DNA of 64,000 nucleotides, taken from Alkalilacustris brevis. GTDB taxonomy: Bacteria > Pseudomonadota > Alphaproteobacteria > Rhodobacterales > Rhodobacteraceae. Position 1 is the stretch's first letter, and every line of letters begins with the position of its first letter. The position numbers and the translations under genes were made by a program. The notes under the pieces were generated by a model that saw only the letters and a program-made list of their open reading frames with translations, was not told the DNA's origin and ran no database searches. This document shows positions 47,386 through 57,831 of this stretch, in pieces. The stretch lies in assembly GCF_003350345.1 (NCBI RefSeq), contig NZ_QNVJ01000064.1, forward strand, positions 1 through 64,000. The letters are read 5' to 3'.

Positions 47386-47462
47386 GCCGCCTTAGCTCAG
47401 TTGGTTAGAGCACCAGATTGTGGATCTGGGGGTCGCCCGTTCGAGCCGGGCAGGCGGTACCA
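47386..47462 (+). tRNA. tRNA-His (GTG)
   Basis: GCCGCCT pairs with AGGCGGT; anticodon loop TTGTGGA gives GTG. Discriminator A, CCA encoded. The end pair is G1-U72 with A73, and no G-1 is encoded opposite a C73; this is the known alphaproteobacterial exception for tRNA-His. T-stem GCCCG/CGGGC. The 3' half is the left end of the 10.2-kb integrative element. Confidence 0.95.
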
Positions 47463-48599
47463 TCCAACATCTTGAGTTCCTTTCGGTTTTGTTATCGCGG
47501 CGCGATCCGCAACTGGTGTGGTTTGCAGGCGGTTTGCAAAAGCCGCGCTGGGCGAGGCCTCGAAAGCCCGCATCGCCGCCACAGCTGCGGCCTTGGTGCG
47601 CTTGCGGTATCGTTCGAGAATCGAGTGCGCGCTTTTCAAAGTGTGGCCCGTAATCGCGCATATGTGGCCTATCTCGCAGCCTTCGGCCTCGAACAGGAGC
47701 GTAACTGTCGTCCCGCGCAGATCACGCAGCTGCAGCCGCTCGGCTGGATCGGCACGCCAGAGACCGGCCACCTTCATGTGCGCCGCCCAGGCTTTCGAGA
47801 GCGCCTTGTCATTGCCATCGGTGAACCACGGGCGGCCGTCGGCCCTGGTCAGTATGTAGGGGCCGGATCGCGGCATAGCTTCGAGCATTTGGCGCAGCGC
47901 TCTGGTACAGGGAATTTCGACAGGCTCACCCGTCTTGCGTTGGGTCAGTCGGATCACCTCGCCGTCGTAGTCTGCCCAGCGCATGCGGATCACGTCACCG
48001 TAGCGCTGGCCCGTATGCATGAACAAAATCATGGCCCGCTGCAGTTCGACCGGAGCCCCGTCCATGAACCGCGTCACGTCCGCCTCGGTCCAGATCACAT
48101 CCGAGCGATCGCCATGGTGCTGTCGTTCGAAACCTTCCGAAAGCGGGTTGACCCGGATACGGCCACGCCTCTTGGCGCGCTTCAGGATCATGGATAGCAG
48201 TTGCATGGCATTGTCTGCCTCGCGCGGCGTGTCGAGCCCCTGCTCTTCGTGCCAGTCGAGGAACACGCCGGCAGCCTTTGGCGAGTCGAGCGCCCGCAAT
48301 GGCATGTCTCCGAAGGCCGACTCGAGCTTACCGCAAAGGCGGCTATACTCTCGCTGTGTGCTGGGCGCCTTCTTGGCGAAATGCGCGCTGCGCAGATACT
48401 CAGCAAGTTCATTTGCCAGCGTTGCGGCCCGCTTAGGGCGCAAGGCCTCCGCCTCTGCATAGGCACGCAGAAACTCGGGGCTGCCCGGCTCACCCGGCAA
48501 TGCCGTTTTGGTTCCACGGTGATAGCGATAAACGCGGATCTCGCCACTCGCGAGCCTCTTCTTGGTCGTGTTGATGCCACCAACCTTAATCCGCACCAC
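47397..48599 (-). CDS. Tyrosine integrase of the tRNA-His element
   Basis: About 400 aa from a GTG at 48599 (or 48596), preceded by GAGG; starts VVRIKVGGINTTKKRLASG. Core-binding domain ~70-165, catalytic domain from ~180: first Arg in HTGQRYGDVIRMRW, HxxR box written RDLRGTT (its first His is Arg), GH in AITGHTL, and Tyr in ILERYRKR. The last ~20 residues (PGSNGRPPDPQSGALTN) are antisense tRNA-His, so the gene crosses the attachment core, and its stop lies in the tRNA D-arm. In the circular form the end would change from GALTN to DPED. Confidence 0.9.
   Translation of the reverse strand: MVRIKVGGINTTKKRLASGEIRVYRYHRGTKTALPGEPGSPEFLRAYAEAEALRPKRAATLANELAEYLRSAHFAKKAPSTQREYSRLCGKLESAFGDMPLRALDSPKAAGVFLDWHEEQGLDTPREADNAMQLLSMILKRAKRRGRIRVNPLSEGFERQHHGDRSDVIWTEADVTRFMDGAPVELQRAMILFMHTGQRYGDVIRMRWADYDGEVIRLTQRKTGEPVEIPCTRALRQMLEAMPRSGPYILTRADGRPWFTDGNDKALSKAWAAHMKVAGLWRADPAERLQLRDLRGTTVTLLFEAEGCEIGHICAITGHTLKSAHSILERYRKRTKAAAVAAMRAFEASPSAAFANRLQTTPVADRAAITKPKGTQDVGWYRLPGSNGRPPDPQSGALTN
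47414..47463 (+). repeat. Left attachment repeat (functional tRNA-His 3' half)
   Basis: Runs from the anticodon stem to just past CCA. It differs from 57587-57636 only at 47435 (G vs C) and 47451 (C vs G), which pair with each other in the T-stem. Confidence 0.92.
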
Positions 48600-48807
48600 G
48601 CCGTCCTCTTTGCCATCGGTCCAGTGCCGCGTCAGCTTCCGATTCGACCGCACCAGCGAATTGCACCTTAATGATCTTTCCCGGCTCGATCGTGAAGCCA
48701 GAGATGGGTAGACCAGTACGACGAGCCGTTTCGAGGACGCGCTCGATTTCCTGCCGGGTCGCCAGACCGACATTCTTCGCTCGCTTTCTCTTCGCGCCCT
48801 CGGTCAT
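48586..48807 (-). CDS. Small hypothetical protein upstream of integrase
   Basis: 73 aa, MTEGAKRKRAKNVGLATRQ..., with AGAGG before the ATG. A basic N-terminus followed by an alpha/beta segment (ISGFTIEPGKIIKVQFAG). It overlaps the integrase start by 14 bases, so the two are co-translated. The position suits an excisionase or directionality factor, but no winged-helix motif is evident. Confidence 0.65.
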   Translation of the reverse strand: MTEGAKRKRAKNVGLATRQEIERVLETARRTGLPISGFTIEPGKIIKVQFAGAVESEADAALDRWQRGRRGAD

Positions 48808-48817
48808 TTGTTACCTC

Positions 48818-49081
48818 TTACGCGCGCCCCGCCACTGGCGCAGCGGCCAGGCGGCAATCGTCATGGCTCGGCAAGTGCTCGACCTTGTCGGCCGACTCCC
48901 TGGCGCATTGCGTGGCCACGTCTCCGCCATGCGAGGTGGCGATCAGCGCCAAAGCCGAGGAATGCAGCCCGGCGAGCACTAGGTCGGGGTGGAGGCCACG
49001 AACCATGATAAGCTGCGCGGCCAGGTCATCGAGTGCGGCGGAAACCAGCTTCGCGGCTTGATCCTGCTGCTTGTCATCCAT
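48818..49081 (-). CDS. Small hypothetical helical protein
   Basis: 87 aa, MDDKQQDQAAKLVSAALDD..., with CGGAG before the ATG at 49081. Largely helical and acidic at the start. Lies between the capsid fusion and the integrase in the same direction. No family recognised. Confidence 0.6.
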   Translation of the reverse strand: MDDKQQDQAAKLVSAALDDLAAQLIMVRGLHPDLVLAGLHSSALALIATSHGGDVATQCARESADKVEHLPSHDDCRLAAAPVAGRA

Positions 49082-49231
49082 CGTCTCTACTCCGTTACAC
49101 CCCCGGCCACCGGCGCGGCGGCCGGGGTCTGTGATGCCTCACGCCGAGGAGGCTGACGCGGCACCTGCGGGTGTTTTTCGCCACCGCCCGCCGGGCGGCC
49201 GGCCCACGAAGGCCGGCATGCCATTCATGCA

Positions 49232-51181
49232 TCAGGCTCCTGGGTTCATGACCCAGCCGCGCCAGTCGACGAAACCGGCGGCGAAATCGATCCGCCCTTT
49301 GACCTCCATGCCGTCGACCTCGAAGCCCATCCGCGTCTCGATCTGGGGCCCGCGCTGGCCGCGCAGGTAGCCATGGATCAGCGCTTCCGGGCGCCCCGGC
49401 TCGGCGGCCAGATACCAGCGCGTCTCGCTCGCAAGGCGCGGCTCGACGATCACCTCGAGCCGGCGCGCAAAGGGGTTCACGTTCTGGACCTCGGCCGCGT
49501 AGAGCTGCGAGGTGGCCTGCAGCGCCTCGGTTTCCTTCTCCGGGCTGACAATGATGTAGCGCGGCACCACCGCGATCACCTCGCCGCCCATGCCGCGCTG
49601 GCGGCGCAGGATCACCATCGCCTCGGAGAGCGCGTCGATATCGATCACGGAAGCCTGGCCGATGTTGACCCGATCCTCGTGGAAGACCGGCAGGGTATCG
49701 GAAAGCGTCGGGCCGGTCCCGGCGTTGTCCTCGAACAGGCCCACCAGCAGGCCGGCCTCGGTTTCCGCCGCGCCGGTGCCGAGAATGCTCGTGATCTTGT
49801 CGAAGGCCCCCTCGGCATCGTTGACCAGCGCCTGGCGCGTCAGCGCGAAGATGCGCCCATAGGTCGCCAGCCGCGTCTTCTCGCCGCTGTCTTCGAGCGT
49901 GCCATACTTGAACTCGCCGCTCTCGAGCGTCTTCTCGAAGGTCATGCTGCCCTGCAACCGGGCGCTGGTCACCTCGCGGAAGTCGTCGAAGGTGCGCTCG
50001 CGGCTCACCCGCTTGAAACCCGAGGCCGCGGCCTCGTAGTGATCGAGCACCCGTAGGTTCGCGACATTGGCAAGGATAGCCGGGAAGTCGCTGGTGGAAT
50101 GGTAGCCCACCCCCGAACGCATCTGCAGAGCGATCTGCAGCGCCTTGGCCGGCCCGCCCTGCACCCTGATATCGTGGATGCGGCAGAACTCGGCCGCCAT
50201 CTCGGGCACCGTCATGCCGGCGAAGTCGCGCGCGTCCTGCGAGCACTCGTGCCGCGCGGGATCGAGCCGGTGCAGCATGGCTCCGCTCATGGCGCGGGCC
50301 AGCAGGCCGTCCCGGTTGTTGCCGGTGATGGAAGGCTCATGCGAGCGGCCCTGCATCGGATCGCGGTCGGCCAGCTTGTCGAGGATTTCGTGGCGGGCCT
50401 CGGACTCGCTCAGGCCGCGCCCGATAAGGTCTTCGGCCAGGTCGTCTCCGAAGTTGTGGTGCGCCACCAAGGCGCGGATCGTGGACGCCGCGCTGGGCAC
50501 GGTGTTGGCGCCGGCATCCGGCGTGGTCGTTGCATGTTTCATCGGTTTCTTTCCCTGCTCGAGAATTTCCGGCGCCTCGCCGGCATGGTCGCCGCGGATC
50601 CCTGCGGCCGGGTCGGCGCCAATTGCGACGGCCGAAATTTCCAGCGGCTCCCAATCGACAGCCCGGTAGAGCGCTCGCTCGCCCCCGTCGTTCCGGTCAG
50701 CCTTGGCGACACGCTCAAACTTGTGCACGCGGTAGCCTACGCTCACGCGCCGGATGATCCCGGCCTTGATGTCGCGCCAGAGCGACTCGACCTCGTCCCG
50801 ATCCGACAGCCGGATCGTGGCGTAGCCCTTGCCGGACTCGATGCGAACGCTGCCTTCGACAACTACCCCCAGCACCGCGCCGAGGTCATGGGCGCGATGC
50901 GTTTCCAGAAACGGGGCGCCGCTGTTGAGCGCCTCGAGGCGCAGCGCCTTGTCATCGACGACCAGTTCCTCGTCGTATTCCTCGTCGCGCATCCACGAAT
51001 AGCGCCGCACCATGGCGCCGGTGGTCCAGACCACCTCGAAGGTGCGCTGGGCATCATTGACCGTGGCCGGCGCTACGGCCGCCGCCCGGGTAGCGATCGC
51101 GCCCGTAAGCTGCGGTCGACCTACGAGCTGCTCGTTCATTGTCTGCCTCCAATGATCGTCCATTGTTTCGCTGATCGTCAT
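49232..51181 (-). CDS. Prohead protease / major capsid protein fusion
   Basis: 649 aa. Residues ~45-215 are an HK97-type prohead protease (S78-like): His95 in FLETHRAHDLGAVLG and Ser147 in IIRRVSVGYRVHKF are the likely catalytic pair. Residues ~216-649 are the major capsid protein: a helical delta-like segment, then LQGSMTFEKTLESGEFKYGTLEDSGEKTRLATYGRIFALTRQALVNDA and the closing FVDWRGWVMNPGA. The ATG at 51181 overlaps the upstream stop (ATGA) and has GGGAGG; a second start at 51139 also has GGAGG. The protease would cut itself away during head assembly. Such fusions are known in phages and alphaproteobacterial islands. Confidence 0.88.
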   Translation of the reverse strand: MTISETMDDHWRQTMNEQLVGRPQLTGAIATRAAAVAPATVNDAQRTFEVVWTTGAMVRRYSWMRDEEYDEELVVDDKALRLEALNSGAPFLETHRAHDLGAVLGVVVEGSVRIESGKGYATIRLSDRDEVESLWRDIKAGIIRRVSVGYRVHKFERVAKADRNDGGERALYRAVDWEPLEISAVAIGADPAAGIRGDHAGEAPEILEQGKKPMKHATTTPDAGANTVPSAASTIRALVAHHNFGDDLAEDLIGRGLSESEARHEILDKLADRDPMQGRSHEPSITGNNRDGLLARAMSGAMLHRLDPARHECSQDARDFAGMTVPEMAAEFCRIHDIRVQGGPAKALQIALQMRSGVGYHSTSDFPAILANVANLRVLDHYEAAASGFKRVSRERTFDDFREVTSARLQGSMTFEKTLESGEFKYGTLEDSGEKTRLATYGRIFALTRQALVNDAEGAFDKITSILGTGAAETEAGLLVGLFEDNAGTGPTLSDTLPVFHEDRVNIGQASVIDIDALSEAMVILRRQRGMGGEVIAVVPRYIIVSPEKETEALQATSQLYAAEVQNVNPFARRLEVIVEPRLASETRWYLAAEPGRPEALIHGYLRGQRGPQIETRMGFEVDGMEVKGRIDFAAGFVDWRGWVMNPGA

Positions 51182-51708
51182 GACTGCGCCTCCCCGCGAT
51201 CGAGGCCCAGCTCATCCGCGCGGGCGAGCACCGTCAGAGCCGCCGCGGTGACGTTTACCAGCGCCAGCACTTTCACCGGATGCGCATTGCGCAGGGCCTC
51301 CGAGGTCGGGTCGGCCAACTGCGCAGCGATGAAATCCTGCAGTTCCGCCACCGGTCCTGCGAACCACCCCATCCATCGCTCGACTTCACCGTGGCGATCC
51401 GTGCCGGCAAATTCGATGGCCCCTATCCATGCCGCGACCTCGAGACCCACCACGTCGTTCGGGTGCGTGCCGTATCGCGTGCTGAGATAGCCCCACGCGT
51501 TGGAAACCATTCCGGCCGCATCATCGGGCCCGATTCCCCCGCTGGGTCCGTTTATCGCCGCGTCCTGTATGCGCAGCCGCCACGCGTGGCTGATGTCGAG
51601 CTCTGCGCGAAACCCCGGATTCGGGTAAGGCAGCTGCGCCCGATCACGGAGCTGGTGCAGCCGTTTCGTCGTGATCCCGGCGCAAAGCGCCACCGCTGCT
51701 GGTTTCAT
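51178..51708 (-). CDS. Hypothetical protein with N-terminal HTH-like motif
   Basis: 176 aa from 51708 (MKPAAVALCAGITTKRLHQLRD), with GGAGG ahead. The first ~40 residues resemble a MerR/excisionase-like helix-turn-helix. The rest (YLSTRYGTHPNDVVGLEVAAWIGAIEF) is unrecognised. Coupled to the capsid fusion by ATGA. It could be a packaging (small-terminase-like) or regulatory protein; neither is shown. Confidence 0.6.
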   Translation of the reverse strand: MKPAAVALCAGITTKRLHQLRDRAQLPYPNPGFRAELDISHAWRLRIQDAAINGPSGGIGPDDAAGMVSNAWGYLSTRYGTHPNDVVGLEVAAWIGAIEFAGTDRHGEVERWMGWFAGPVAELQDFIAAQLADPTSEALRNAHPVKVLALVNVTAAALTVLARADELGLDRGEAQS

Positions 51709-51750
51709 GGCCGCCTCCATTTGCTGGATAGCATCTCGCAAGCATCCCAC

Positions 51751-52380
51751 CCGGTCAATACCCCAACTGAGGACAAGCCGTGGCAGTGCTCCAAAGCTCC
51801 GGTATGCTCAGGTTTTCAATTGCTTGCATTACTAGGAAGCCTTGCGCAAATATCATTGGCCGCCCATGGAGCGTGACCTTTCTTGTCGGCCCCGAGGCAC
51901 CGCCAGGCCGGCGCGCAGAACCATAATGGTCAAGGATCGGAGCGAGCGCAGCGCGCGGCACGCAGGGAAAAATGCTGTGGAAATGGCTTGCACCCCCCTG
52001 CCCTCCCCGCTTGGGTCCTTCCTGGCGCGCGACGTATGCGGGGGGCAGAGGCGCTATAAGCCGCTAGCGGCAAACGAAAATTCTGGGTTCGCACTTTGGG
52101 TTCGCAGGTTCGCACCTACCACGCACCACCAGAAAACGAGGATGGACTGTGGGGCGCTTGAGACCGCAGCCCTTCCCCTGGGGCGGCTTCTTCTGGGCGA
52201 GCATCTTGTTGCAGAAAAGGACATTGAGATGACCTGCGGCGAAGTCGACGTCGTGGCGCGAGCCATCCAGGCCGTGCCCAAACGACTTTGACGAGGCACA
52301 CACGAGGCGCATCAATTTTCTTCCCGACGGCCTTTCGGTCGCCAAGCTCCTTGCAATGGAACAGCGGTGAGTCAACACTG
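51751..52380. other. Non-coding left edge of cargo zone, with GGTTCGCA repeats
   Basis: 630 bases without a recognisable gene. Three copies of GGTTCGCA at 52086-52093, 52099-52106 and 52107-52114. Several short frames read through but none has a ribosome site or family look. Possibly a decayed gene; it separates the capsid block from the cargo. Confidence 0.4.
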
Positions 52381-52422
52381 ATGCTCAGAACCACAGAACT
52401 ACGACACGGATGTCACCTAAGC

Positions 52423-53346
52423 ATGCTCCAAAGACTCTTCACGGCGCTCACGACGACACTGTTTCTCGCCCCGCTAGCCACACCGGCGCTGGGAAACATC
52501 CCACAGCCTGTGATCGAGCAATGCAATGCGACTGCGACAGCGTCGAGCCTGCCAGATTGCCTGAAGGATGGTGCCATCGCATATGAAATGCTTGAACTTG
52601 TGCGCTCTGAAGATTTCTACGGATCCGCCGCGGCGCCCGTCATCTCGGAATGCGAAGACCGCAACGAGACCTTCTCGACAACGTGGTCGTGCTTTCAGCG
52701 CGCCGCTGACAATGCGGCTGAAACCCGAGGCCTCATCGGTGTCGACAACATCGCCGATCGCTGCATCGCAGGCATCTCGGACGAAGCACTCGCACCCCGG
52801 ATCCGCGAGATCTACCGGGAGCGACGGAGACAACTCTATCCCAACGGAGGGTTCTACTCCGGCAATATGTTCTACCCCTTCCAGGGCTGCCCGGAACCCG
52901 TGGAGCCCGAGGGTTCTGCTTCGGCCGACACCGTACCTGAACCAGACGAGACGGCCAGTATCGGCCCAGATGGCTGTGCCGCCCTTAATGAAATCGAGGC
53001 GATCATCGCATCGCGATCGGCCGGGAAGCTTCGAGAGCTCAGCGCGGAACTGCGGGACATTGGTGATCCCGACGCGCGCGAGCTTGGCGCGGCAACTGGG
53101 CTTTCAGAGGGTGCGGCGGACTACGTCCTGAGCGGCGATGATGATCGCGGCTGGACAATCGCCGCAACATTGGGTGTGTTTCTTCGGGCTCACCATCCCG
53201 AGCTTCTCATGGAGTTCTTCCAACAACACGAAACCACATCACCACATCCTGGCGCTGACATGGGCGATGCGATGGCCCAGGCCTTCGTGACAATGATCAT
53301 CGACGCCGCTGACGATCGGTTTAGGAGTGAATGCGGCGCGAGCTAG
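52423..53346 (+). CDS. Hypothetical exported protein (cargo)
   Basis: 307 aa from the ATG at 52423, which gives a clean signal peptide (MLQRLFTALTTTLFLAPLATPALG); an in-frame ATG at 52381 would add 14 residues and has GGTGAG before it. The mature protein is Cys-containing (VIEQCNATATASSLPDCLKDGAIAYEM, later RNETFSTTWSCFQRAA), acidic and helical, with a Pro/Glu/Thr linker near 165-185 and a second helical domain after it. No family recognised. It is on the opposite strand to the element backbone, as cargo often is. Confidence 0.65.
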   Translation: MLQRLFTALTTTLFLAPLATPALGNIPQPVIEQCNATATASSLPDCLKDGAIAYEMLELVRSEDFYGSAAAPVISECEDRNETFSTTWSCFQRAADNAAETRGLIGVDNIADRCIAGISDEALAPRIREIYRERRRQLYPNGGFYSGNMFYPFQGCPEPVEPEGSASADTVPEPDETASIGPDGCAALNEIEAIIASRSAGKLRELSAELRDIGDPDARELGAATGLSEGAADYVLSGDDDRGWTIAATLGVFLRAHHPELLMEFFQQHETTSPHPGADMGDAMAQAFVTMIIDAADDRFRSECGAS

Positions 53347-53478
53347 GGCGGACTCCGGACCTTCTCTGCGAGTGCGAGCTAACAAAGCCCGCGCACAGAA
53401 AGCCGACATTCAGAAGAGGCCGAACTCAAACAGTGGACTGCCGTGCCGCAAGACGGCGACGTGACCACCGCGGACGGT

Positions 53479-53706
53479 TCAGGCCACAGTGCGCTTGGAG
53501 TTGGTCAAGTAGGTCTCTTCAGAAAAGACCCCTTTATAGAGGCTTTCCTCCAGGAAGCTGAGGACCGTTTTTAGGTCGCGCTTGACGGAGGGTAGAACAA
53601 CGCGACCACCGTCTTCGTCAAGCGTAAGCCCTACGGTATTTGCACGGGCGATCTCTGCGGCATCATAGTCTACCAAGATTCCCGATTTATGGATTCCCCG
53701 CATCAA
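53479..53706 (-). pseudogene. C-terminal fragment of a DUF4868/KwaB-like protein
   Basis: 75 codons without a proper N-terminus. The end, RVVLPSVKRDLKTVLSFLEESLYKG followed by YLTNSKRTVA, resembles from memory the conserved C-terminus of DUF4868 proteins such as KwaB of the Kiwa anti-phage system. The upstream part of the gene is missing (the region 53707-53790 is non-coding). Most likely a decayed defence gene. Family identity is tentative. Confidence 0.4.
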
Positions 53707-53766
53707 TTTTCAGCAGCGTTCATCCATCTGGTTGTCGAAACCGTCTCGGCTCAATTGATATTACTG

Positions 53767-53797
53767 CGCATTGAGCAACTACCAGCTGCTCAATGCG
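53767..53797. other. 11-bp perfect hairpin in cargo zone
   Basis: CGCATTGAGCA / TGCTCAATGCG with a 9-base loop, between the DUF4868-like fragment and the PIN gene. No T-run. A 31-codon frame starts at 53793 in its right arm (MREIPSIRQALADINEVEKD..., ends 53888) and looks protein-like, but is probably a remnant. Confidence 0.4.
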
Positions 53798-53956
53798 GGA
53801 AATCCCTAGTATCCGCCAGGCGTTAGCTGACATTAATGAGGTCGAAAAAGACTTCTTGACAGGATTTAGGGAATTCAAGCGCCCCTAGATTTAAAAACTG
53901 ATTTCAATCGCCCATTACGCACTCTCATGAACCCAGCGCGAACAGTCAGATCGCCA

Positions 53957-55309
53957 CTACTCTTCAGGCTCATGACGCGAAATCAATTTAGAGATTTCGG
54001 CGAGTCGATATTCTAACATTTCTACGCGCCGACTTGCCGCTACTAGGTCTTGAAACAATTCTTCCCTGTTGTGAGTCGAGGATTGCTCAAACTCTCGCTG
54101 AGCGTACTCTCTCGCTTCCAACGCCGCCGACATCTCCATTCTAAGCTCACGAATCTTTTCTGATCGAAAGGCAGGTCGGCGGCGACCAAAGTCATTAGTC
54201 CTTTCTGCAGAAATGCCGTCTCCGTACCGACCAAGCCTCTCAATGTCTTCGGACGATATCATATGGCTCCGTTCATCGTCGGCTATACGTGCGCCATGAC
54301 TTAAAGCGTTTCTTCTGTATGTCAGGTAACTTTCGCGCTCACGATCATACAGAAAACGTTCACGTTCACTCAGGTCCTCCAACGCATTTCGCCTGCGCCT
54401 ACGGACGGCGTAGCTCGCATGAGCATCCTCGTGTTTGGCGGTCTCAGCTGCTCGAACTTCGTCGATAGCTCCCTCCGATATTTTCCCACCAATGTAGTTG
54501 CTTGCAACTGCCACGAAACTGTCAGGAGTATAAAACTTCACATGCTTGCCGGTGAACCTGTTAAACTCAGCAATCAATTCTGGCCTAGGCGAAATGGTTT
54601 TTCCACTCTTCTCCAACCACCAATCTTCTTTTCGGTCGTCCGTCACGAACACGACATGCTTATCCTCTGCTTTCGCCATTTCCAAAGTCTGACGCCACAG
54701 GACGAAGTCTCCGTAAAGCCGCTGCTTATCGTCTGAGGTCTGTGGGTCTTTCACTTTACCAGCGTCCATATAGCCGGGCGGAACTTTGCGATTGTATCGA
54801 TCTTGACCTTCCTCAAAGAGAGCCTTCATCGTGTCTTCATCGAACTCACCTCCCGACCGCTCATCAAAAATCTTGGCTAGTCGGACCAGCACGTCGTCTT
54901 GCGTCATACGCTGTTCGATTGTCTGACCACTTGCATCGAGTTCCTGCTCAATTTTCGTAATCGTTTCTTCCAGCTTGCTTGCGCTTTCCGCTGAGATGAA
55001 AGGGTGCCCTCGATCAGTCGAGAACTGACGCTTGATGGATGTCAGGGCACGCTTCATGTCGTCGTAAGTTTTCTTCTGGTCCGCAATAACGGAGATGCGA
55101 TTTCGAAAGAACTCGACTCCAGCCTGATGAGGTAGCCAAACCCGCTTTTTGATCCTTTCGAATTGAGAGAACAGCGCATCTCGCGTGGTGTCCGAGTACC
55201 TGTACATATTCAGAAGTGTGTTAGCGTCGAAGACGAACACACCACTGGCCCAAATCTCTTTGACCTGATCATCGTTCAGCTTGAAATGGCCCAAAAACTT
55301 CGATTTCAC
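53957..55309 (-). CDS. PIN-like domain protein, candidate defence nuclease
   Basis: 450 aa. The N-terminal ~270 residues form a PIN-type ribonuclease domain (PIN_8-like): Asp28 in GVFVFDANTLLNMYRYS, Glu66 in HQAGVEFFRNR, Asp201 in YGDFVLWRQTLE, and Asp224 in VVFVTDDRKEDWW fit the acidic active site. The rest is charged coiled coil (RRRRRNALEDLSERERFLYDRERESY, later REYAQREFEQSSTHNREELFQ). No adjacent antitoxin gene, so it is not an ordinary VapC pair. GC is lower than in flanking genes. The position in the cargo zone suggests phage defence or abortive infection (inference). Confidence 0.72.
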   Translation of the reverse strand: MKSKFLGHFKLNDDQVKEIWASGVFVFDANTLLNMYRYSDTTRDALFSQFERIKKRVWLPHQAGVEFFRNRISVIADQKKTYDDMKRALTSIKRQFSTDRGHPFISAESASKLEETITKIEQELDASGQTIEQRMTQDDVLVRLAKIFDERSGGEFDEDTMKALFEEGQDRYNRKVPPGYMDAGKVKDPQTSDDKQRLYGDFVLWRQTLEMAKAEDKHVVFVTDDRKEDWWLEKSGKTISPRPELIAEFNRFTGKHVKFYTPDSFVAVASNYIGGKISEGAIDEVRAAETAKHEDAHASYAVRRRRRNALEDLSERERFLYDRERESYLTYRRNALSHGARIADDERSHMISSEDIERLGRYGDGISAERTNDFGRRRPAFRSEKIRELRMEMSAALEAREYAQREFEQSSTHNREELFQDLVAASRRVEMLEYRLAEISKLISRHEPEE

Positions 55310-55429
55310 ACTTCACCTCATTTTCGATGGCTATCTATCAAGCCGCCACGATCTAATCACCAGAAGCGGCTTCTTGGCAACCGTCACTGAGGTCATGTAT
55401 CGACCCAGTGAAAACCTGCTCATGCTACA

Positions 55430-55561
55430 AGGGAGGCCGATGCTCTGCCCCAGGGTGGCCTCCGCGGTTTCGTCGGGGACCCGGATGGCCACATCTAGGA
55501 GATCGCATGGAACCCCGCCTTGCCGGTCAACGAGCACGGTCACGTCGTCTTCGGAGTGTGA
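55430..55561 (+). pseudogene. Remnant of a VOC (glyoxalase-like) protein with in-frame amber stop
   Basis: Reads GGLRGFVGDPDGHI, then TAG at 55496-55498, then EIAWNPALPVNEHGHVVFGV and TGA. DPDGHxWEIAWNP is the C-terminal metal-site signature of VOC-superfamily proteins; the stop stands exactly where Trp (TGG) is expected. The N-terminal part is not recognisable. A dead gene in the element, with host-like composition. Confidence 0.6.
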
Positions 55562-55846
55562 TGCCGCGCGGGCTGGTCGGAATGACTTGAACAGTTTCGG
55601 CCAGCTCCTGAAAGCGTGAAGGGGAAGTCCCCCCGTGGTGCCGGAGGTCAGATTCGTCCCGCGCTGCTGGTGTTTGCGTGCCTGATGAAGCTGCCCGGGG
55701 TCGTGAACTACCGGTTCGGGGAAGCTGCATCGTAGCGATAGCCGATCCGGCGAACGGCTGCTATGGGCCGCGAGTGTCACCCCCGCCACGCTTGCCGCAT
55801 CCAGCGCCATCTGGTCCGTCTCAGTCATGACAGCACCATCCGCCCC
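55562..55846. other. Degraded segment; possible truncated phage gene start
   Basis: After the VOC remnant. On the minus strand an ATG at 55828, 19 bases after the next gene's stop, gives MTETDQMALDAASVAGVTL and then loses protein character. It may be the 5' stump of a backbone gene cut off when cargo was inserted. Confidence 0.3.
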
Positions 55847-56473
55847 TTACGCCGGCCCAAACACCTCACGCATGATCCGCTGAGCAGCGGCGCGGCGCTG
55901 CGCAGTGGTCTGAGGGTCCGGGCGCTGTGCCTCACTGAATCGGCGCACCGCCCCGGCATCGGTGCGCAGCTGCAGCGCAAGTAGCTTGCGCGGCGCGGCG
56001 AGTTCCTGGCACGCGTCCTCGAGTTCGGCGAGCGCTGGGAAAAACCGCCAGCGCCGATGCAGGATCGCCTCGTGTACGCAATCCGCCGGCCATTCCGCAA
56101 GACGCTGGACATAGATCTTGATCGCAGCGCCTGCCTCGGCCGGGTCGCTTTCTCGGTGCGCGGTGATCAGCCGCAGCGCGGCCAGCCACTGCGCGATCTG
56201 CCGTTGGGGCGCCGGCTGAAGAGATTGCTCGACCAGTGCCCGGGCGCCCTCGATATCGGCACCCTCGGCAATCTCGATCCTCTGCTCGGCGCGGCCGCCC
56301 ATTGCCGCGTTGCGCTCACGGACCATGGTTACCCCCATCCGGCCAATCTCGTGCAGCAGCCACCCAAGGGTCGCCGACGGCCTTTCGATTTCCGTGCCGG
56401 TGCGCGGCGTGACGGTTGCGGTGGAATGGCACGACGCGGTCGCCGTGGCTTTGATTCCGAGTTGCATGGTCAT
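55847..56473 (-). CDS. Phage/island replication-associated hypothetical protein
   Basis: 208 aa from 56473 (MTMQLGIKATATASCH), with GAGGGA seven bases ahead. The recognisable part is near the C-terminus: VHEAILHRRWRFFPALAELEDACQEL, a pattern I associate with small proteins beside phage replication initiators. Overlaps the preceding HTH gene by 158 bases in another frame. Function unproven. Confidence 0.6.
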   Translation of the reverse strand: MTMQLGIKATATASCHSTATVTPRTGTEIERPSATLGWLLHEIGRMGVTMVRERNAAMGGRAEQRIEIAEGADIEGARALVEQSLQPAPQRQIAQWLAALRLITAHRESDPAEAGAAIKIYVQRLAEWPADCVHEAILHRRWRFFPALAELEDACQELAAPRKLLALQLRTDAGAVRRFSEAQRPDPQTTAQRRAAAQRIMREVFGPA

Positions 56474-57287
56474 GGTGTTGTCCCTCGTCGATTTCCAGTT
56501 TCGGCGCCCGCTTCGCTGCAGCAAGCCGCTGCATCGGGTCGCGAAAATACCGAAGCGTTCGCGGCGGGCCGTCGCGTCTGGCTGCCATCACCTCGAGGAT
56601 CACCTCGAGGATCTCCACACGGCTGAGGCCGAGGTCGCGCTCCCAGCGCTGGGCCTCGTGCATGTCGGCCTGGTCGATCAGCACGCGGCCGGTGGCGGTT
56701 ACGCCCGGCGGCTCCACGCCCAGCGCCTCGAGCAGTTCCTCACGCCACGTCTGCCTGGCGCAGTCCTGTTTCTCAGGATCGGCGGTCGGCTGTGGCTCGC
56801 TCGGCGAACCGTCGCGTTCGACCGACGGCGGCTCGTCGATCTTCCGCTCTCGAAAATCAGCATTGAGCGCGCGCGCTCCACCACCATCACCAAAGGGTTC
56901 TAAGGGTTCGGGGGAACCGCCGTTCCGGTTTTCTTGCACCCCCGTTCCGGTTTTCTGACTTTCGTCGGCGCTTAACCGGTCCCCCGTTCCGGTTTTCTCG
57001 TTCCGGTCCTCGGGCTCTTTCCGGGTGAGCAGGATGACCCTGTAGCGGCTCCGGTTGCCGCGTCCACGTGCCACCTCGACCTCGAGCCAACCGTCCGTCT
57101 CGAGGCGCCGCACGATCTTCCTGGCGCCCCGTTGCGTGAACCCGCATCTCTCGGCGATATCGGCCATGGAAGGGTCGCAGCATCCCGTTCGCGCGTCAGC
57201 CCGATCAGCGATCGCCAGCAGCACCATCCGCTCCGCAGTCTTGCGCGGGCCATGTTTGAAGACGTGGTTGATGTGGTGATTACTCAT
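56316..57287 (-). CDS. Helix-turn-helix protein, probable replication initiator-like
   Basis: 323 aa from 57287 (MSNHHINHVFKHGPRKTAERMVLLAIADRAD). The N-terminal winged helix (~20-85: PSMADIAERCGFTQRGARKIVRRLETDGWLEV) is the domain found in phage and plasmid replication initiators. A low-complexity linker carries repeated ENRNG/KTGTG units (~95-130). The C-terminal ~60 residues, rich in His/Arg, overlap the next gene in another frame and look like read-through, so the original stop may have been lost. Its ATG overlaps a short upstream frame (ATGA). Confidence 0.7.
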   Translation of the reverse strand: MSNHHINHVFKHGPRKTAERMVLLAIADRADARTGCCDPSMADIAERCGFTQRGARKIVRRLETDGWLEVEVARGRGNRSRYRVILLTRKEPEDRNEKTGTGDRLSADESQKTGTGVQENRNGGSPEPLEPFGDGGGARALNADFRERKIDEPPSVERDGSPSEPQPTADPEKQDCARQTWREELLEALGVEPPGVTATGRVLIDQADMHEAQRWERDLGLSRVEILEVILEVMAARRDGPPRTLRYFRDPMQRLAAAKRAPKLEIDEGQHHDHATRNQSHGDRVVPFHRNRHAAHRHGNRKAVGDPWVAAARDWPDGGNHGP

Positions 57288-57355
57288 CCCACCATCCCCC
57301 ACGCGAGGCTGGCGACGGTAGACGCGATCGACCTCGGAAGCCCAAAGCGGCGCAT
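57284..57355 (-). CDS. Short leader-like frame before HTH gene (doubtful)
   Basis: MRRFGLPRSIASTVASLAWGM..., 23 codons from 57355, ending in a TGA that overlaps the HTH gene's ATG. The upstream in-frame extension (YHDDLRAATL) also looks protein-like, but no start codon or ribosome site is clear. Might be a small real gene with translational coupling. Confidence 0.3.
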   Translation of the reverse strand: MRRFGLPRSIASTVASLAWGMVG

Positions 57356-57586
57356 CAGCGTTGCGGCGCGCAGATCGTCGTGATACTTTCCTCTGTGACG
57401 ATTTGCGCTTTCGTCAGGATACCCTACAGCCCCGGTCGCGCCCGCCAGCGCGGCCGGGGTTTCTCGTTCCGGTGGCGCGCGGCGGTGGCCAGCGGCGGTT
57501 TGCACCCGCCTGATAACCCGTTGATCGAAAAGGCCCGCTTTGAGCGCCGGTTTGAAAAAAAGCCCTTTGGAATCAATCCTCGGGGT

Positions 57587-57636
57587 CAGATTGTGGATCT
57601 GGGGGTCCCCCGTTCGAGCCGGGGAGGCGGTACCAT
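57587..57636 (+). repeat. Right attachment repeat (tRNA-His 3' half copy)
   Basis: Copy of the tRNA-His 3' half from the anticodon stem to CCAT. T-stem CCCCG/CGGGG in place of GCCCG/CGGGC. No 5' half precedes it, so it is not a working tRNA gene. Confidence 0.92.
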
Positions 57637-57831
57637 TCAATTCCCCTCGATATTTCCGACCGCGTCTTCGGCAACTATACGCCTGTGCCGTGAGGTTCTG
57701 CAGTTCACGCAACCTGCCTTCCGCGATAGGCTGCACCTGCCGGTATGGAACGCGCGGCGGCCAGGTCCCTTTCGTTTTGCAGGGGCGGGATCATCGCGCA
57801 GCTTGCGAAGCGCGAGGGGGAGGATAATCCA

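Follow-up and report, generated by a model that had tools for sequence, protein, structure and literature searches.

We analysed a stretch of 64,000 nucleotides (the window) of contig NZ_QNVJ01000064.1 of Alkalilacustris brevis (Rhodobacteraceae), taken from a 3.48-Mb draft genome in 103 contigs. At positions 47414-57640 it holds an element, the window island, that combines an integrase and a replication-type gene with a prohead protease fused to a major capsid protein, and in which no portal, large terminase (TerL) or tail gene was detected. In our view the island is rather probably a satellite resembling the phage-inducible chromosomal islands (PICIs), one that would supply its own shell and maturation protease and use the portal, packaging motor and tail of a helper phage. 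The same reduced gene set recurs in other elements, and the capsids of relatives are under purifying selection. The following features define the island and its shell gene.

47386-47462, plus strand: intact tRNA-His gene (GTG anticodon), the integration site, identified with ARAGORN
47414-47467, plus strand: attachment repeat at the integrase end, overlapping the tRNA-His gene, 54 nt, 94% identical to the distal copy
57587-57640, plus strand: distal attachment repeat, 54 nt, 94% identical to the copy at the tRNA-His end
49232-51181, minus strand: intact fusion of an S78-type prohead protease and an HK97 major capsid protein, 649 aa, identified by family matches and a structure model

The two repeat copies lie 10,173 bp apart, and their longest exact run covers 21 of the 54 nt; the ends of the island are clear, yet not exact. 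A preliminary description of this DNA had proposed a 10.2-kb element with exact ends in tRNA-His, carrying an integrase and replication-type helix-turn-helix (HTH) genes. ARAGORN, the repeats and the family matches bore out the site and the genes, and the size stands (10.17 kb), but the exactness of the ends does not. All island genes judged real point toward the integrase, save one plus-strand open reading frame (ORF) at 52288-53346. From the distal end they encode a replication-type HTH protein, a 225-aa ORF, a PIN_8 protein, a 75-aa ORF, a protein that we labelled p190 (the product of 51178-51750), the protease::capsid fusion, two small ORFs and the integrase.

The identity of the fusion is well defined. 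Its capsid part matches Pfam PF25209 (1.2e-46), its protease part the S78 protease family PF04586, and the whole protein both phrog_4523, 'major head and protease protein' (7.8e-183, PHROGs), and NCBIfam NF045541 (677 bits against a cut-off of 525). Residues H95 and S147, the putative catalytic His and Ser, are identical in all 27 aligned homologues; this agrees with the earlier proposal of a prohead protease/capsid fusion with both putative catalytic residues. The structure model (pLDDT 72.5) gave HK97-fold matches, a strong codon-position bias runs along the intact 649 codons, and the stop of p190 overlaps the start of the fusion by 4 nt, an overlap also present in one of the relatives described below (L044). 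Over 143 residues the S78 protease shares 73% identity with its counterpart in a phage-type locus (L046). Since the whole capsid protein is fused to its own protease, the gene suggests an element able to make and mature a full shell.

Portal, terminase, connector and tail families were absent from the PHROGs matches at E <= 0.1 for 10 island ORFs, a scan that left out two ORFs of 149 aa (51842-52291) and 165 aa (55331-55828). In a tblastn search of the island with 18 proteins of relatives (terminases, portals from six loci, a connector-like 71-aa protein, p190 and a 90-aa protein), nothing scored better than E 0.018, and that match lay inside the capsid ORF. As for head-tail connectors, no PHROGs family was found in the 10 ORFs and the 71-aa protein, from locus L080, was unmatched; no separate search was made for the DUF2190-type protein that relatives carry. 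In the sensitivity control of the terminase search, TerL was found in four of four controls and the small terminase (TerS) in three of four. Both searches thus agree with the preliminary description, which had recognised no terminase, portal or tail genes. A hidden, divergent portal or terminase received no support from the PHROGs scans and tblastn, the fold search having taken in only part of the ORFs of unassigned family.

The capsid found matches in 112 of the 394 genomes sampled from the family, a count that includes the window's genome. From these matches we chose a part, 60 capsid loci including the window (labelled with L-numbers), and annotated them by tblastn. A portal was found in 50 of the 60, and in 34, again including the window, an integrase match lay within 1.2 kb of the capsid match. 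The integrase-linked loci are mostly tail-less elements with a full head module: 28 of the 34 have a portal, 24 of these 28 also TerL, the other four being cut by contig ends, and a tail-type match occurred in only one of the 34 (L069). No match to tail proteins of Rhodobacter phage RcDormio was found in 27 of the 28 portal-bearing ones; all tail queries came from this one phage, and a divergent tail gene could be missed. Attachment repeats, the shortest of 14 and 20 nt, were found in 8 of 10 full-head islands tried, 9.85-11.75 kb apart; they were sought without result in L095, L096 and L079. These full-head integrase-linked islands are satellites like the capsid-forming PICIs (cf-PICIs), with the layout TerS, TerL, cargo, portal, protease::capsid, small connector-like proteins and integrase. 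By eye, large variable genes, for example methylase-like and DUF262-like ORFs, fill the stretch between TerL and portal in L048, L049 and L078; in full-head elements this stretch is likely a cargo or defence hotspot.

The remaining six integrase-linked loci, namely the window, L040, L044, L066, L124 and L125, lack both portal and TerL. The preliminary description had held that the island would be a simple prophage relic if its homologues elsewhere were full prophages and it alone were short; what we found instead was a single tail match among 34 loci and five other portal-less elements. Besides the tRNA-His of the window, the sites are tmRNA (L040, L125), tRNA-Arg (L044), tRNA-Phe (L066, from Cypionkella) and a position beside tRNA-Cys (L124), making five different tRNA or tmRNA genes. 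In PHROGs scans that covered part of the ORFs, 10 genes apiece from L040, L044, L066 and L125 gave no portal or TerL, and L040 has a TerS (phrog_57, 1.1e-32). Sizes defined by repeats are 9.67 kb for L066, 9.66 kb for L044, 9.03 kb for L125 and 10.17 kb for the window island, close to those of the full-head islands; the 16-nt repeats of L044 and the 13-nt repeats of L125 are tentative. The repeat considered for L040, of 10 nt only, was at the level of chance and was rejected; L124 gave no repeat and has a truncated helicase, and its left end may have been lost. The other four of the 10 loci lacking a portal match were not counted as shell-only elements: L119 with its truncated capsid, L122 at a contig end, the phage-type L123 with a tail match, and L126, where nothing else was found.

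Whereas the protease of the window is S78-type, that of the other five portal-less elements is ClpP-type, fused to the capsid in L044 and in the other four separate but overlapping the capsid start. Lengths of 205-207 aa for the protease and 488-495 aa for the capsid are kept in L040, L066, L124 and L125. A p190 homologue precedes the capsid in five of the six portal-less elements (the match in L124 is a self-match and was not counted) and occurs in 6 of 28 portal-bearing ones. In the capsid tree, from which ten rows had been dropped (L117, L119 and L126 for being partial or odd, and L106 with six more as judged near-copies), L040, L044, L124 and L125 group at 100/100, all six portal-less capsids fall on one side of a branch supported at 82/56, and the remaining five at 68/38 in a second tree with L044 also dropped and the capsid of a Rhodovastum plasmid (below) added. 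Long branches join the window capsid to L066, a pairing supported at 94/40 and 95/59. Provided that L040, L044, L124 and L125 had a portal-less ancestor in common, their capsid and protease have been kept for a long time without a portal.

An element of another genus, L080, occupies the same tRNA-His site, and by eye its left-flank genes resemble those of the window. Its integrase is 51% identical to that of the window, its 46-nt repeats are 11.03 kb apart, and it carries TerS-TerL-p190-portal-protease::capsid, a nearly complete head module with no tail match. From the likeness in site, integrase, repeats and capsid, we infer that the window island belongs to the L080 lineage of islands, without the packaging half. 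The preliminary description had proposed a search of relatives for the same gene order at tRNA-His; a relative at this very site does exist, but it has TerS, TerL and portal, and loss in the window lineage is therefore likely, even if function was kept.

Of 49 capsid and 22 protease residues invariant in 26 other homologues, the window protein keeps 39 and 20; the portal-less L066 capsid keeps 42 of the 49. Nine further relatives, seven satellites that bear a portal (38-49) and two phage-type capsids (37 and 43), span a range in which the window's 39 falls. Between L124 and L125 the capsids differ with dN 0.40 and dS 1.66 (near saturation), and in neutral simulations their frame stayed open in 0 of 300 runs at each of three levels. 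Judging from these sequences, capsid and protease are intact and constrained in the portal-less class. Intact frames and purifying selection had been named beforehand as signs of retained function; the frames are intact and selection acts in relatives (L124/L125 and the Escherichia coli islands below), but the window copy has no close relative.

Similar gene sets were found outside the family. Plasmid RHOAph of Rhodovastum atsumiense (L301, NZ_OW485609.1; 10,690 bp) carries ParA, toxin-antitoxin genes, a DUF3987 primase, a 178-aa protein whose stop overlaps the start of an S78-type protease::capsid, and a protein with a weak head-closure match; neither the 10 of 16 genes scanned nor the annotation gave a portal or terminase. 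Because its capsid branches elsewhere than that of the window, reduction may have occurred more than once. A 7,842-bp plasmid of Synechococcus elongatus PCC 7942 (L384, NZ_CP130604.1; four of its six annotated genes scanned), by its size presumably of the pANS/pUH24 type, is possibly a phage satellite maintained in plasmid form. It has two genes of interest:

NZ_CP130604.1, 3470-3985: small-terminase-like gene (phrog_57, 2.9e-17)
NZ_CP130604.1, 6063-7667: HK97 protease::capsid fusion

In E. coli, the circular record L383 (NZ_CP148328.1; 10,790 bp) encodes an integrase, a primase, a ClpP::capsid and a small terminase (phrog_141, 6.7e-57), together with a tail-assembly gene and a tail fragment; portal and TerL are not in its annotation. 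At least 80% of L383 is present in 52 of 5,426 complete genomes. Two chromosomal copies at two sites (L385, L386) hold the integrase-primase-capsid-TerS set without tail genes, between repeats of 18 nt and 26 nt that are 10.4 and 11.1 kb apart. Three pairwise comparisons of the island capsids gave dN/dS values of 0.07-0.09. In all, 191 E. coli genomes contain 80% or more of the capsid gene, islands and prophages being unsorted among them.

The other genes of the window island are the following.

47397-48773, minus strand: tyrosine integrase, ORF of 458 aa whose true start is probably later (phrog_1, 2.6e-33)
48586-48807, minus strand: 73-aa ORF between capsid and integrase, overlapping the long integrase ORF, with matches in L080 (35% over 49 aa) and L127 (43% over 51 aa)
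48818-49081, minus strand: conserved small protein of 87 aa (41% in L040, 38% in L043, 30% in L078), with no family in Pfam or PHROGs
51178-51750, minus strand: p190, a MerR-like winged-helix protein with its start probably at 51708 (176 aa), whose homologues adjoin capsid genes
52288-53346, plus strand: cargo ORF, by eye with a stretch resembling a signal peptide; Pfam, PHROGs and NCBIfam scans gave no family
53479-53706, minus strand: 75-aa ORF, decayed cargo, a C-terminal fragment of KwaB of the Kiwa anti-phage system (PADLOC KwaB, 1.1e-22)
53957-55309, minus strand: PIN_8 (PIN-like nuclease domain) protein, cargo and possible defence gene (PF18476, 9.9e-62; no PADLOC match)
55847-56524, minus strand: 225-aa ORF after the replication gene and overlapping it, start uncertain, no family better than E 0.02
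56316-57302, minus strand: replication-initiation-type HTH protein of 328 aa (PF13730, 6.1e-9; phrog_391, 3.7e-16)

The integrase scored 25.9 bits against PF00589, slightly below the cut-off of 27.1, and the HTH protein also matches phrog_270 (replication initiation). The KwaB fragment covers model positions 214-288 of 289 and adjoins the PIN_8 gene.

The predicted structure of p190 (pLDDT 87) is that of a MerR-type regulator plus a second domain, with CvkR, a MerR-type regulator, as best match (Z 10.1, rmsd 4.0, 137 residues); Foldseek against PDB and BFVD gave no match at E <= 0.001. Homologues were found in 7 of 394 and, by a second search, in 6 of 390 sampled genomes, the window's genome counted each time, and tblastn in the phage and plasmid collections found nothing. 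We rejected p190 as a small terminase, given the CvkR match of its model and the separate TerS of full-head relatives; it may still have a role in packaging, possibly as a specificity factor. Neither is it a universal hallmark of these elements, because in L124, RHOAph and the Synechococcus plasmid the protein in the corresponding position misses its profile (E 0.16 or worse). In the 11-kb element L064 (IMGVR_UViG_3300001202_000082), a p190 homologue adjoins the integrase beside a different head module, made up by eye of TerL, HNH, capsid, a separate protease and portal; p190 thus travels with different capsid types.

From these families a mode of action can be proposed. The integrase and small proteins would move the island at tRNA-His and the HTH protein would start its replication. 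Upon infection or induction of a helper, p190 and protease::capsid would be expressed, with p190, to judge from its modelled fold, switching on the shell operon. The fusion would assemble a shell, probably around the helper portal, and the fused protease would mature it; the helper would give portal, large terminase, connectors and tail. The satellite would thereby be packaged and helper heads diverted. In the window's own genome, contig C68 bears phage-type terminase, portal and protease::capsid genes, and two contig ends (C24 and C96) bear a tail protein 63% identical to that of RcDormio. Together these represent a candidate helper type, a single live prophage being only putative. A further copy of the tail protein (45%) lies on C81 and may belong to a gene transfer agent.

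Several results weigh against this reading. No TerS was found in the island by PHROGs (10 ORFs) or tblastn, which leaves packaging specificity unexplained, and, as the KwaB fragment shows, the island is decaying in parts. Over the whole fusion the window keeps 61 of 75 shared invariant residues, the lowest of 27 rows, and its capsid branch is long (0.85 against a median of 0.15). Of five congeneric genomes, two have a capsid match, namely the genome of the window and a second one whose best match reaches 40%, too distant for a selection test, and no empty site was seen, the right-flank DNA having no match in the four other congeneric genomes. The p190 proteins of L080 and the window are linked through a profile, with no pairwise match at E <= 1. 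The capsids of L040, L044, L124 and L125 keep 27-30 of the 49 invariant residues, below every portal-bearing one tested, and in these ClpP-type capsids constraint could be altered or relaxed without a portal; the grouping of all portal-less capsids is itself weak. Finally, among the best 80 of 580 IMG/VR relatives of the L125/L124/L040 capsids, 79 had a portal and one was cut by a contig end, and among the best 80 of 283 relatives of the Rhodovastum capsid the figures were 72 and 8; none of these 160 was portal-less where upstream DNA was present. The classification left out L298 and the 80 IMG/VR loci found with the ClpP-type protease. A first scan of viral contigs with the window capsid found nothing.

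The preliminary description had left a choice between decay of a prophage and a satellite remaking the capsid of its helper. Of the two, the satellite is better supported, with a tail match in 1 of 34 loci, recurrence of the short form and constraint in the class. A lone prophage relic was rejected as the leading view, since the relatives linked to an integrase are islands without tails and elements of the short form turned up repeatedly. Decay re-enters in another form, in which the island was once a full head-module satellite like L080, lost TerS, TerL, portal and connectors, and has a capsid that is merely not yet broken. The presence of those genes in L080 at the same site, the KwaB fragment, the long branch and low residue count of the window capsid, and the truncated capsid beside TerL in L119, as decay would leave, all fit such a course. 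It has nevertheless to accommodate a fusion open over 649 codons with strong codon-position bias, the p190/capsid overlap seen also in L044, and the reduced set in five other family elements, on two plasmids and in islands of E. coli, two of these groups showing measured constraint on the capsid. We therefore regard it as unlikely, while giving it more weight than any other rival.

Still less probable is that the capsid serves mainly to poison or miniaturise helper heads and, with PIN_8, to protect the host, own spread being secondary or lost. The Ccm protein of a staphylococcal satellite, expressed alone, cuts helper titre 10^3-10^4-fold (PMC5052747), and PIN_8 and a Kiwa remnant sit in the cargo region; yet a whole protease::capsid exceeds what a poison needs, and integrase, replication gene and repeats have been kept. 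A compartment that stores cargo protein rather than DNA is very improbable: the capsid model matches both encapsulins and phage capsids, but such fold matches cannot tell the two apart, the maturation protease is kept, and the closest of the relatives found are capsids of satellites and phages.

Beyond the window island, a PICI-like satellite as we read it, we suggest only tentatively that shell-only satellites are a separate, recurrent strategy: a complete shell protein and maturation protease, in some cases with TerS, from which a whole shell would be built on a hijacked portal, motor and tail, arisen repeatedly from full head-module satellites, living also as free plasmids (RHOAph and the S. 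elongatus 7.8-kb plasmid) and kept by selection in E. coli islands. Whether a satellite's own shell can accept the portal and motor of another phage becomes open to testing; the Synechococcus plasmid and the E. coli islands, similar in gene content, provide laboratory systems. The portal-less form may escape virus catalogues, as it was unseen among the 160 best IMG/VR matches classified (151 with portal, 9 cut by contig ends).

Among known systems, a whole prophage differs from the window island in its terminase, portal and tail, none of them detectable here. RcDormio (MW677510.1) has the same type of protease::capsid fusion, 38% identical to that of the window, but is a full phage of 41.6 kb with terminase, portal and tail. 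PICMIs carry an integrase, AlpA and a DUF3987/DUF5906 primase at a fis site (PMC10803314); the window island, by contrast, sits in tRNA-His and has a capsid, and neither AlpA nor such a primase was among the Pfam matches of its 10 ORFs. The window fusion belongs to NF045541, whereas the ClpP-type protease of its portal-less relatives is of the type named in NF045540; both are protein families and are silent on a missing portal.

The cf-PICIs are closer. As defined in PMC10690885, they encode a major capsid protein with maturation protease, portal, TerL and TerS, head-tail connectors and a site-specific integrase, and no tail. L080 has this layout, and the window shares the integrase, capsid and maturation protease and the lack of a tail, but with no portal, terminase or connector found it falls outside the definition. 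The preliminary description had taken portal and terminase to be normal in capsid satellites; this is true of cf-PICIs but not of SaPIbov5 Ccm, PmCI172 and EcCICFT073, which are in print without such a set. The latter two are Gram-negative PICIs encoding a capsid-like protein, EcCICFT073 having cos sites and no TerS and a capsid role described as unproven (PMC6092414 and PMC6893505); their likeness to the window island is one of description. A full-text search for capsid satellites without portal or terminase, and for satellites of Rhodobacterales or other Alphaproteobacteria, gave no paper that we recognised as treating this group, subscription literature being mostly outside its reach.

The nearest parallel is SaPIbov5, with other cos-type SaPIs that carry Ccm. 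According to PMC5052747 and PMC8569155, this satellite has its own HK97-fold capsid protein, Ccm, a homologue of the helper capsid protein that takes the pentamers and turns prolate heads small, and it uses the capsid protein, portal and tail of the helper; roughly one in three SaPIbov5 procapsids showed the helper portal (PMC8569155), and no protease was identified in this satellite. The window island has the gene content of a Ccm-type PICI: a capsid homologue, an integrase and a replication gene, without portal, TerL or tail. It differs in that Ccm forms the pentamers of a mixed shell, whereas the window capsid is fused to its own protease, belongs to NF045541 and comes from an alphaproteobacterial host. 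By this analogy the window element most likely works, in broad terms, as SaPIbov5 does with Ccm. A capsid-encoding satellite without packaging genes is thus already known; new are the protease::capsid form, its recurrence and the two states at one attachment site. Capsid-encoding satellites are thereby placed between PICIs, which take the entire particle from a helper, and cf-PICIs, which take the tail only.

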